From Paracoccus xiamenensis (GTDB taxonomy: Bacteria; Pseudomonadota; Alphaproteobacteria; Rhodobacterales; Rhodobacteraceae), in the NCBI RefSeq assembly GCF_011308835.1, contig NZ_JAAOHY010000001.1, positions 186,001 to 250,000 on the forward strand: 64,000 nt of DNA. The letters are read 5' to 3'. Position numbers and translations under genes: made by a program. The notes beneath the pieces are model-generated. The model did not search any database. It was not told where the DNA came from and was given only the letters and a program-made list of their open reading frames with translations. This document shows, piece by piece, positions 52,076 to 56,703 of this stretch (within the stretch, counting starts at the first letter, position 1; the number at the start of each line of letters is the position of its first letter).

Positions 52076-53134
52076 ATGAGCGACACGAATATGGATAAGA
52101 GATCGGCCGACAAGCAGAAGGCCCTGGACAGCGCGCTGGCGCAGATCGAACGGCAGTTCGGCAAGGGCTCGATCATGAAGCTGGGCGCCGACAACCCCGT
52201 GGCCGAGATCGAGGCGACCTCGACCGGTTCGCTGGGGCTGGATATCGCGCTGGGGATTGGCGGTCTGCCGAAGGGGCGGATCATCGAGATCTACGGCCCG
52301 GAAAGCTCGGGCAAGACGACGCTGACGCTGCATTGCATCGCCGAGGAACAGAAAAAGGGCGGCGTCTGCGCCTTTGTTGATGCCGAACACGCGCTTGATC
52401 CGCAATATGCGCGCAAGCTGGGTGTGAACCTTGATGAATTGTTGATTTCGCAGCCGGACACGGGCGAGCAGGCGCTGGAAATTGTCGACACGCTGGTGCG
52501 TTCGGGGGCGGTCAGCATGGTGGTGGTCGATTCGGTCGCCGCACTGACGCCGAAATCGGAAATCGAGGGCGATATGGGCGATCATCAGGTTGGCGCCCAG
52601 GCCCGTTTGATGAGCCAGGCGATGCGCAAGCTGACCGCCTCGATCGGGCGCAGCAATTGCATGGTGGTCTTCATCAACCAGATCCGCATGAAGATCGGGG
52701 TGATGTTCGGCAATCCCGAAACCACCTCGGGCGGGAACGCGCTGAAATTCTATGCCTCGGTCCGTCTGGATATCCGCCGCACCGGCGCGATCAAGGACCG
52801 CGACGAAGTGGTCGGCAACTCGACCAAGGTCAAAGTGGTTAAGAACAAGGTTGCGCCGCCCTTCCGGCAGGTCGAGTTCGACATCATGTATGGCGAGGGG
52901 ATTTCCAAGATGGGTGAGCTGATCGACCTCGGCGTGAAGGCCGGCGTGGTCGAGAAATCGGGCGCCTGGTATTCCTATGGCGACGAACGCATCGGGCAGG
53001 GGCGTGAAAACGCCAAGCAGTTCCTGCGCGACAACCCGGCCATGGCCTATGATATCGAAGACAAGATCCGCGCCAGCCACGGCCTCGATTTCGCCGTCGC
53101 GCCGGGCGAGGATGACGTGCTGAGCGAAGACTGA
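52076..53134 (+). CDS. recA: Recombinase A
   Basis: DNA strand-exchange protein and coprotease for LexA, 352 residues. Walker A is GPESSGKTT (about 74-82), Walker B follows as [10 protein letters not shown], and the L2 DNA-binding loop is around [26 protein letters not shown]. The start is supported by AGGAG upstream of the ATG. The acidic C-terminus ends GEDDVLSED. Expression should be SOS-controlled through the LexA box upstream, and the gene ends at a strong terminator. Confidence 0.98.
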
Positions 53135-53177
53135 CGCCGAGGGTTAACAGCGGCGCAGCTTGAAACCTGACCAAAGA

Positions 53178-53213
53178 GCGCCTGTCGGAGATCCCGGCAG
53201 GCGCTTATTTTTT
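53178..53213 (+). terminator. recA terminator
   Basis: An 11-bp stem with one G-U pair (GCGCCTGTCGG with CCGGCAGGCGC), loop AGATC, followed by TTATTTTTT. A canonical intrinsic terminator 44 bp after recA. Confidence 0.88.
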
Positions 53214-53720: not shown

Positions 53721-55595
53721 CTACGACGCGCCGCCCTCTTGCCACCAAGTTTCGGGCAAAAAGCCCGGATAGTCGCCATAAATCGGCAGTCGGTCCGGGA
53801 ATTTCAGAACCTTGTCATGCGCAATATGGCCCTCGGGCGCAAAACCGACCGGAATCACATAGCGTCCGGCCGTCAGCACCCGGTCGAGGGCGCGGACTGC
53901 GGCAACAAAGTCCGCCCGCGTGGCGGAGCTGACCATGGCGGCGATCATCGCCTCGGCGGCAGGAGAGTTCATGCCCATCAGGTTGCGCGTCCCCGGCTCT
54001 GTCACGCCCTTTGCGCCCCAGTACAGCATCTGCTCATTGCCCGGCGACAGCGACAGCGCGCGGTCAAACCAGGTCATGTCGAAAGTATAATTGTTGGTGC
54101 GCTGCGTGTATTGGGCGCTGTCCAGCAGGGTAATCACCGGGGTGATGCCAAGATTGCGCAGGGCCTGGGCATAGATTTCCGACATCTGCCGCATCTCGGC
54201 GGCCGTGGTGATGGCGCTGCCCGACAGGTTCAGCAGGATCTCGAACCGGAAGGGCTGGCCTTGGGCGTCGGTCAGCTGGCCGTCGCGAATGGTCCAGCCG
54301 GCCTCCTCCAGCAGTTTCAGCGCCCGTTTCAGGGCAGGGCGGTCCAGAGGTCGGTCGGCACCCTCGGGCAGGGCATAGCCGTCGATAGTGCCGGGGGGCA
54401 GGTCCTTGGCGAAGGGCTCCAACAGCGCCAGTTCGCGCCCTTCTGCGGGCGCGCCGGGCGTCATCCCCAGTTCCGAATTGGCGAAGTACGAGGTGATGCG
54501 CTGATCCTTGCCGCCCGAGACGGTGTTGTTGATGAATTGCCAGTTAAAGGCTTCGATGAGGGCCTGACGGACGCGCCAATCGGCGAAGATCGGGTTGCGG
54601 GTGTTCATCACGAAGCCGGTGATGCCGGTCGGACGCTGGTGGGGAATGTCGGCCATCACCACGGCGCCCGAGGTCACGGCGGGGAAGTCGAATTCGTTTT
54701 CCCAGCGGCTGGGGCTGAGTTCGCGCCAGGCGTCCAACTCGCCGGCCTTGAAGGCCTCGAACATGGCATTGGCGTCGCCGTAATAGTCGTAGGTGACGCG
54801 GTCGAGGTTGTGCAGCCCCTGATTGACGGGCAGGTCCTTGCCCCACCAGTCGGGGTTCTTGCGCAGCGTGAATGAACGGCCGGGATCGACGCGCTCGATC
54901 ACATAGGGGCCAGAGCCGATTGGCGCCTCCAGACTGGAATCGCTGAAATCCTTCCCCTCCCACTGTGCCTTTTGCAGGATCGGGCGCATGCCCATCAGCA
55001 AGGCCAGTTCGCGGTCGTTGGTGTTAAAGGTGAAGCGGACCTTGTTCGGGCCGGTCTGTTCCATCTTTGCGACCTTGGACCAGACGCCGCGATAGCGGGG
55101 ATGGCCCTGGGTGCCCAGCGTTTCATAGGACCACATCACGTCCTCGACGGTGACAGGGCTGCCATCGGAAAAGCGGGCCTCGGGCCGCAGGGTGAATTCA
55201 ACCCAAGTCCGGCCGGGGTCGGTTTCCACGGTTTCCGCCAGCAGGCCGTAAAGCGTGAAGGGCTCGTCCAGCGAGCGCAGCATCAGCGTTTCGGCCAGAA
55301 CGCCGGGCATCGTATACAGCGGCAGCGCCGGATTGCCCTTGAGAACCCATGGCTTAAGCGAATCGAAGCTGCCCGATTCGGGCAAGCGAATCGAACCACC
55401 TTCCGCAGCGTCAGGATTGGCATATGGCAGATGTGTAAAGCCTTCCGGCAGGGCTGGATCGCCGTACATCGCGATGCCATGCGCCGGCTCGGCAGCACTT
55501 GCCAGCGGCATCGCTGCAACAGTCGCGAAGCTGCAGAAACCGGCCAGAATGGCGGGCTTGATCGCGGAATCGTTAGGGAAATTGAAGATTCGCAT
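53721..55595 (-). CDS. ABC transporter substrate-binding protein, family 5 (YejA-like)
   Basis: A 624-residue periplasmic solute-binding protein of the SBP_bac_5 family. The signal peptide covers about residues 1-35 (ending MPLASAAEPAHG). The mature protein begins GIAMYGDPALPEGFTHLPYANPDAAEGG, as in YejA microcin C/oligopeptide-type binding proteins. Typical later blocks are PIGSGPYVIERVDPGRSFTLRKNPDWWGKDLPVNQG and the family tryptophans. GAAGGA precedes the ATG. The permease and ATPase genes (yejBEF) are not adjacent, so this is an orphan binding subunit or the edge of a rearranged cluster. Confidence 0.88.
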   Translation of the reverse strand: MRIFNFPNDSAIKPAILAGFCSFATVAAMPLASAAEPAHGIAMYGDPALPEGFTHLPYANPDAAEGGSIRLPESGSFDSLKPWVLKGNPALPLYTMPGVLAETLMLRSLDEPFTLYGLLAETVETDPGRTWVEFTLRPEARFSDGSPVTVEDVMWSYETLGTQGHPRYRGVWSKVAKMEQTGPNKVRFTFNTNDRELALLMGMRPILQKAQWEGKDFSDSSLEAPIGSGPYVIERVDPGRSFTLRKNPDWWGKDLPVNQGLHNLDRVTYDYYGDANAMFEAFKAGELDAWRELSPSRWENEFDFPAVTSGAVVMADIPHQRPTGITGFVMNTRNPIFADWRVRQALIEAFNWQFINNTVSGGKDQRITSYFANSELGMTPGAPAEGRELALLEPFAKDLPPGTIDGYALPEGADRPLDRPALKRALKLLEEAGWTIRDGQLTDAQGQPFRFEILLNLSGSAITTAAEMRQMSEIYAQALRNLGITPVITLLDSAQYTQRTNNYTFDMTWFDRALSLSPGNEQMLYWGAKGVTEPGTRNLMGMNSPAAEAMIAAMVSSATRADFVAAVRALDRVLTAGRYVIPVGFAPEGHIAHDKVLKFPDRLPIYGDYPGFLPETWWQEGGAS

Positions 55596-55679
55596 GCAGT
55601 CCTTCGCTTAGCTCTGGCAAATGCCAGTGATTTCAATGCGCAGCCTATCCGAGGGTGTTTACCGTGACAAACAACAGCC

Positions 55680-55708
55680 TTGGACTCGGGCGCGGTTTCG
55701 CCTATATA
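55680..55708 (+). promoter_or_regulatory. Promoter of the candidate small RNA
   Basis: TTGGAC (55680-55685) and TATATA (55703-55708) with a 17-bp spacer, the ideal sigma-70 distance. It points to the plus strand, where the first feature is the RNA at 55715. The reverse strand of the same gap must carry the yejA-like promoter. Confidence 0.65.
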
Positions 55709-55714
55709 TAACTC

Positions 55715-55788
55715 ACTGCTCGATAGGTTTCTTGCCTGTATGAAACCTGCCTCATGACTGGCGCCCGCTTCGTGCGGGCGCTTTTTTT
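55715..55788 (+). ncRNA. Candidate small RNA (about 74 nt), unrecognised
   Basis: Between the divergent yejA-like and bdhA genes (325-bp gap, no protein gene) a sigma-70 promoter is followed about 74 bases later by an intrinsic terminator with no gene before it. The transcript would hold a first hairpin (AGGTTTC 55725-55731 with GAAACCT 55742-55748, 10-base loop TTGCCTGTAT), a single-stranded linker GCCTCATGACTG, and the terminator hairpin (55761-55781) with seven T. This layout is that of a trans-acting small RNA; a terminating leader of bdhA is the alternative. I do not recognise the family. The remainder, 55789-55920, is the bdhA 5' region with no other feature seen. Confidence 0.6.
55761..55788 (+). 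terminator. Intrinsic terminator of the candidate small RNA
   Basis: Perfect 8-bp stem GCGCCCGC / GCGGGCGC with loop TTCGT followed by TTTTTTT, the strongest terminator in the window. No plus-strand protein gene lies upstream of it for it to serve. Confidence 0.9.
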
Positions 55789-55920
55789 AATGGCTTTGCG
55801 GCCCGATCATCCGCATAGGGCCGGGTGGGAATCGCCCCTTCTGATCCATTGGGGCCTTCGGTTGTGGTCGGCCTGCGCGGAGCGTAGAGATTTGTCGACA
55901 CAAACCGAAAGGGTGAGCCC

Positions 55921-56703
55921 ATGTTCGAGAATGTTCTGAAGGGAAAGACCGCCGTTGTGACCGGATCAAATTCCGGGATCGGGCTGGGGATTGCGCGCGA
56001 ATTGGCGGCTGCAGGTGCCGATGTGGTGCTCAACAGCTTTACCAATGACGAGGCCGACCACAAGCTGGCGGCTGACATGGCCAGCGAATTCGGTGTCGAT
56101 GTGCGCTATATTCAGGCCGATATGTCGAAGGCTGACGAATGCCGGGCGCTGATCGAAAAGGCGGGTTCCTGCGATATTCTGGTCAATAATGCCGGCATTC
56201 AGCATGTCGCCCCGATCCCGGAATTTCCGGTCGACAAATGGGATGCGATCATTGCGATCAACATGTCCTCTGCCTTCCATTGCACGGCGGCGGCGCTGCC
56301 GGAAATGCAGAAGAAGGGCTGGGGACGCGTCATCAATATCGCCTCGGCCCATGGGCTGACGGCCAGCCCCTATAAGTCGGCCTATGTGGCTGCCAAGCAT
56401 GGCGTGGTCGGGCTGACCAAGGTGACCGCGCTGGAAGAGGCCGGCAAGGGCATCACCTGCAACGCCATCTGCCCCGGCTATGTGCTGACCCCGATCGTGG
56501 AAAAGCAGATCCCGGACCAGATGAAGACCCATAACATGAGCCGCGAGGATGTCATCAAGAACGTGATGCTGGCGCGCCAGCCCTCGGGCGAGTTCGCGAC
56601 GGTCGAACAGATGGGGGGCACGGCGGTGTTTCTGGCCTCGGACGCGGCCGCCCAGATCACCGGCACGACGATCAGCGTTGATGGCGGCTGGACGGCGCTT
56701 TGA
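55921..56703 (+). CDS. bdhA: 3-hydroxybutyrate dehydrogenase
   Basis: NAD-dependent oxidation of D-3-hydroxybutyrate to acetoacetate in polyhydroxybutyrate/ketone-body use, a short-chain dehydrogenase of 260 residues. NAD loop TGSNSGIGLGIA, NNAGIQHVAPIPEFP (typical of this enzyme), catalytic NIASAHGLTASPYKSAYVAAKHGVVGLTK and CPGYVLTPIVEKQIPDQ match BdhA. The C-terminus TGTTISVDGGWTAL is standard. Its 3' end overlaps the convergent LysR gene by 32 bp. The small RNA candidate lies directly upstream. Confidence 0.92.
   Translation: MFENVLKGKTAVVTGSNSGIGLGIARELAAAGADVVLNSFTNDEADHKLAADMASEFGVDVRYIQADMSKADECRALIEKAGSCDILVNNAGIQHVAPIPEFPVDKWDAIIAINMSSAFHCTAAALPEMQKKGWGRVINIASAHGLTASPYKSAYVAAKHGVVGLTKVTALEEAGKGITCNAICPGYVLTPIVEKQIPDQMKTHNMSREDVIKNVMLARQPSGEFATVEQMGGTAVFLASDAAAQITGTTISVDGGWTAL

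Follow-up and report, generated by a model that had tools for sequence, protein, structure and literature searches.

A conserved small RNA gene of Rhodobacteraceae, most likely an StsR orthologue, with a predicted pairing site in the dcw leader

Between a yejA-like and a bdhA-like gene of Paracoccus xiamenensis, a promoter-like element is followed at short distance by an intrinsic terminator. The locus raises the question of whether it encodes a free-standing small RNA or a leader of bdhA, and to which family the RNA belongs. The window analyzed here is a stretch of 64,000 nucleotides (assembly GCF_011308835.1, contig NZ_JAAOHY010000001.1, positions 186,001 to 250,000 of the forward strand), and the positions in Table 1 are counted from its first letter. 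The first-pass annotation proposed either an independent small RNA or a terminating leader that links the use of 3-hydroxybutyrate to a signal, and it did not recognize the family. Taken as a whole, the explanation that we hold to be very probable is an orthologue of the Rhodobacter sphaeroides small RNA StsR, transcribed from an RpoH-type promoter and pairing with the dcw leader and the UpsM RNA, and not a leader of bdhA.

The RNA gene and its conservation

The TTGGAC and TATATA elements, the 17-bp spacer, the hairpin, the linker and the terminator described in the first-pass annotation were all confirmed in position. TATATA itself occupies 55703-55708, 17 bp away from TTGGAC. The arms of the first hairpin, as read from the letters, are AGGTTTC (55725-55731) and GAAACCT (55742-55748). 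They are followed by the linker GCCTCATGACTG (55749-55760) and by an 8-bp GC stem formed by GCGCCCGC (55761-55768) and GCGGGCGC (55774-55781), with the loop TTCGT between them and seven T after the stem (55782-55788). The RNA measures 74 nt from the inferred start to the seventh T; measured the same way, its length is 71-80 nt in 147 loci among the matches listed. The fold of 55711-55789 (79 nt) has an energy of -29.1 kcal/mol as compared to a mean of -18.0 kcal/mol (sd 2.85) for 200 shuffles, which corresponds to a z of -3.9.

Table 1. Features of the yejA-bdhA gap and its flanking genes (positions in the window)
Feature	Position	Strand	Basis
Upstream promoter box, consensus CAAACTTTTAGC (here CAAACAACAGCC)	55668..55679	+	Gap-free alignment on the core
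-35 element TTGGAC	55680..55685	+	TTG 92-100% conserved (142 loci among the matches listed)
-10 element CTATATA	55702..55708	+	C-14, T-13, A-12 and T-9, with TTG at -36 to -34
Small RNA gene, about 74 nt, most likely StsR orthologue	55715..55788	+	Start 55715/55716 inferred; fold, conservation, covariance model
40-nt 5' core	55715..55754	+	Nearly invariant in the family
First hairpin AGGTTTC/GAAACCT, 10-nt loop	55725..55748	+	Letters read; fold
Predicted pairing region with the dcw (mraZ) leader, 17/18 nt in the own genome	55733..55750	+	Antisense match; predicted pairing
Intrinsic terminator, GC stem and T7	55760..55788	+	Letters read; terminator scan; compensatory changes
yejA-like gene, divergent neighbour	53721..55595	-	Name from the first-pass annotation
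bdhA-like gene, downstream neighbour	55921..56703	+	Name from the first-pass annotation

The terminator was said to have no plus-strand protein gene upstream of it, and this holds: the yejA-like gene lies on the minus strand, and the plus-strand frames of the open reading frame list in this region, for example 54972-55667 with a TTG start and mostly antisense to yejA, are taken as spurious. The possibility that a small frame within the core (ATG AAA CCT GCC TCA ...) is coding was rejected, as its end differs among genomes and a ribosome site is not visible. The claim that the terminator is the strongest of the window is not supported: a scan of 50-60 kb also gives a 13-pair terminator at 53176. 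This terminator-like stem (53176-53206), which has more pairs than that of the small RNA, follows a gene at 52076-53134 that we take to be recA-like.

At E <= 0.1 the segment 55676-55792 of the window matched 245 of 248 family genomes, 242 of them at E <= 1.4e-12. The other three of the 245 (G147, G166 and G236) matched weakly, with E of 0.03-0.06, and have no match at E <= 1e-5 to a covariance model built from 24 sequences; G033, G133 and G155 are without any match. Four of these six genomes missed by the model are less than 90% complete. The model was further applied to an order sample of 121 genomes, all at least 90% complete and all belonging to the organism itself, its genus or its family. 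A full-length match was found in 121/121 at E <= 4.3e-21, with one strong full-length match per genome and second matches of at most 31 bits. In a class sample of 240 genomes, strong matches appeared in three family members only and none was convincing outside the family; 11 other genomes of the class gave weak matches of 25.6-29.6 bits. Homologues outside the family were considered and rejected: the fetched loci share at best 19-23 of the 40 core positions without gaps, which was taken as chance.

The core turned out to be intact (40/40) in all 43 model matches checked. These comprise the 20 best of the order sample, 20 of its 22 weakest (the two left out being the own genome and G023) and three strong ones of the class sample, own genome included. 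The 15-nt 5' end is found exactly in 115 of 120 genomes, and in 117 if two with one mismatch are counted. Among 14 genomes picked mostly for their weak BLAST matches, one of which (G145) is also among the 43, the core is identical in 7 and agrees at 28-39 of 40 positions without gaps in the other 7. The first 40 columns of an alignment of 24 sequences are invariant, partly by selection, since the alignment was made from 147 loci among the matches listed that had been found or chosen by the exact core pattern. In the same 24 sequences the terminator reveals compensatory, both-sided changes at 6 pairs; the first hairpin is without covariation support because its pairs never vary. The family-wide conservation, the conserved promoter of its own and the covarying terminator strongly support the independent small RNA of the first-pass annotation. 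The locus is a free-standing small RNA gene.

The covariance search against Rfam that had been suggested was carried out, and no family passes its threshold in the window. A divergent member of a known family, for example mmgR/suhB (RF00519) or Hrs13 (RF02631), would likewise be a short RNA with a hairpin and a terminator, and both families give full-length weak matches, of 18.8 bits for mmgR and 24.8 bits for Hrs13. However, these scores are far below the gathering scores of 41 bits (mmgR/suhB) and 52 bits (Hrs13), and no strong homologue was seen outside the family among the 240 genomes of the class. We consider such a membership extremely improbable. Since no Rfam family passed the threshold on the window, annotation by Rfam would miss this RNA.

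Neighbouring genes and promoter

The neighbours were surveyed in 148 loci in all, among the matches listed. The yejA gene is adjacent in 132 of the 137 loci with at least 900 nt of upstream sequence, and bdhA is adjacent in 104 of the 132 for which 900 nt or more of downstream sequence were available. The position of bdhA as the next gene on the same strand in these 104 loci is what a terminating leader or attenuator acting on it in cis would lead one to expect. However, 28 of the 132 loci keep the small RNA without an adjacent bdhA, the gene being 1.0-2.3 kb away in 8 and not found in the sequence examined in 20. Anchor and bdhA are separated by anything from 97 to 558 nt, antisense scores against the 5' region of bdhA are no better than those of shuffles (mean 7.00 vs. 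7.14, n = 109 loci), and the core matches a distant target instead, as described below. The earlier proposal of a leader controlling bdhA is not supported by these data and appears very improbable. In the 5' regions of yejA a weak signal was noticed, with an antisense score of at least 11 in 3 of 137 loci vs. none of 137 shuffles. The closest named locus among the matches listed is that of Paracoccus isoporae, with 91% identity in bdhA and 76% in yejA. A species named Cereibacter, which is the current genus name of R. sphaeroides, has the gene as well, with an identical 40-nt core and between the same two neighbours.

The promoter appears to be of the RpoH type, judging from its bases. In the 142 aligned loci among the matches listed, TATA is conserved at 94-99% and both T-13 and A-12 at 99%; conservation in the family does not extend to C-14 and T-9. 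The promoter does not match the sigma-70 consensus, no such match being listed by a scan of 50-60 kb. In the own genome one RpoH was found above the cut-off, the other match being an RpoD-sized frame. The window has C-37, TTG, C-14, T-13, A-12 and T-9, the same bases as those at the RpoHI/RpoHII positions given in the available passages of PMC3441632, according to which TTG is important for both RpoHI and RpoHII in R. sphaeroides. The upstream box CAAACTTTTAGC (columns -55 to -44 from ATAGG) is conserved at 66-96% in the same 142 loci, and the copy in the window, CAAACAACAGCC, is degenerate. This box lies outside the RpoH positions described in those passages of PMC3441632; it could serve as an UP element or as a site for a regulator.

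Predicted target in the dcw leader

In the own genome, an 18-nt antisense match to the small RNA lies at G000:C18:207650-207667, upstream of the mraZ match at C18:207875-208279. The complement is located 213 nt before the GTG of mraZ. The predicted duplex has an energy of -29.8 kcal/mol; among 3992 random stretches of 30 nt from the window, 9 pair at least as well. When up to 3 mismatches are allowed, the 20-nt antisense of the hairpin region has only two matches in the 3.64-Mb genome, namely the gene itself and the dcw leader; a control pattern has none at the same tolerance. Relatives were examined at 30 mraZ loci, which were fetched from a set of 60 matching genomes and do not include the own genome. 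A complement scoring at least 13 is present in 27 of them, 175-258 nt before the mraZ match and in each case above the 20 shuffles of that locus, with a background of 4 in 600 stretches reaching this score. After correction of the offset, L165 and L170 (in the latter touching the contig end) also carry the complement, which raises the count to 29/30.

Downstream of the complement, the leader of the own genome forms a strong terminator-like stem in its predicted fold, and a simple terminator scan listed nothing in the mraZ leader. With such a stem and the complement, it resembles the UpsM/dcw 5' leader of R. sphaeroides, which differs from the RNA discussed here in being the target and not the small RNA. 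The small RNA is thus predicted to pair with the dcw leader and UpsM. About 18 of the 40 near-invariant nucleotides would take part in this pairing, and 22 nt lie outside the known pairing region.

The sole relative of the 30 without the usual site in the dcw leader is L160, from genome G029. The small RNA of G029 has a core of 34/40 and the lowest model score of the 14 genomes compared (L160, L288), and GGTTTCGTACTAGG in its mraZ leader is a possible partner at a shifted position. Co-evolution of the two is possible, and the changes in RNA and leader are suggestive only.

Near-perfect 15-nt pairing in 120 genomes did not point to a further conserved partner for the 5' end, with 13 extra matches vs. 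13 control matches. Six of the 13 extra loci were examined and share no common target: two are related genes, presumably bchI-like, with the site opposite to the coding strand, and four are unrelated. In the own genome a 17-nt, 94% antisense match to the 5' half of the small RNA is seen at G000:C10:345029-345045 (L007). It lies in the 3' part of a frame that we take to be ArsR-like, but on the opposite strand, and is therefore not a target in that mRNA.

Likeness to StsR and proposed role

According to the available passages of PMC8307010, PMC11354728 and PMC8625941, StsR is a 72-nt, Hfq-associated RNA under the control of RpoHI/RpoHII that reaches very high levels in stationary phase; its binding to UpsM and to the dcw 5' UTR brings about cleavage by RNase E and lowers the amount of dcw mRNA. 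It was formerly named RSs0827, and its induction upon iron limitation and under prolonged singlet oxygen has been reported (PMC3413700, PMC3688512, passages available). UpsM is described in the accessible part of PMC5089854 as a 206-nt RNA placed 268 nt upstream of mraZ, which is not processed under singlet oxygen when RpoHI and RpoHII are missing.

The RNA of the window resembles StsR in its length (about 74 vs. 72 nt), its putative RpoH-type promoter, its orphan small RNA gene and its complement in the dcw leader/UpsM. Since size, putative promoter class and predicted target agree, it was filed as an StsR orthologue, most likely the family that the first-pass annotation did not recognize; the assignment rests on these three points. 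In the literature searched, which excludes the main 2021 StsR paper, the sequence and map position of StsR were not found, and literal pieces of the sequence matched only Salmonella and reef-fish papers, irrelevant by title. The R. sphaeroides genome was not found among 394 genomes (0/394 at E <= 1e-95; best ChrR identity 69%). The indirect nature of the assignment leaves some room for a conserved Rhodobacteraceae small RNA other than StsR that likewise has the dcw leader as a partner. However, such an RNA would have to share size, promoter class and target with StsR, and there is one such gene per genome (121/121), so we regard it as unlikely. The StsR orthologue may be among the 167 putative Paracoccus denitrificans small RNAs of PMC5107571, the accessible main text of which names neither bdhA nor StsR. 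The word "hydroxybutyrate" is absent from the accessible text of PMC4809877 on small RNAs of Ruegeria pomeroyi.

Another published target of StsR in R. sphaeroides is the rpoE mRNA, just after its start. As a conserved target, rpoE is not supported: of 30 rpoE-chrR loci of other genera, one scores above its own 20 shuffles and one ties with them. The rpoE starts were placed only roughly, by open frames, and some of the 30 frames may be wrong. The RNA of the window thus differs from StsR in that rpoE pairing is not conserved in relatives, ChrR was not found in its own genome and a single RpoH lies above the cut-off. Given the latter two points, the published rpoE branch and the dual-RpoH control are unlikely to apply unchanged in this genome. 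As rpoE pairing was not seen across the 30 other rpoE loci, we infer that the dcw branch is ancestral and the rpoE branch local.

The following course of events may be proposed. The putative RpoH-type promoter would yield a free RNA of about 74 nt, made in stress or stationary phase if the behavior in R. sphaeroides applies here. The loop and the 3' arm of its hairpin, together with the first part of the linker, are predicted in silico to pair with the conserved complement about 175-260 nt upstream of mraZ, a site that would lie both in the dcw leader and in the UpsM RNA made from it. By analogy with R. sphaeroides, pairing would give RNase E access and remove UpsM, and the dcw mRNA would be lowered and growth slowed.

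The StsR literature found, which does not cover the main 2021 paper, concerns one species, R. sphaeroides. We tentatively suggest, as something possible rather than probable, that StsR is a core regulator of all Rhodobacteraceae and that its 40-nt 5' part is nearly invariant because the nucleotides other than the roughly 18 pairing with the dcw leader bind further partners, several mRNAs or a protein. If this is true, StsR would connect stress, growth arrest and cell division as a hub throughout the family. Gene and target site are predicted to have been retained together throughout a large and ecologically important family (the site in 29/30 sampled relatives), so that control of the division gene cluster by RNA would be characteristic of the family as a whole.
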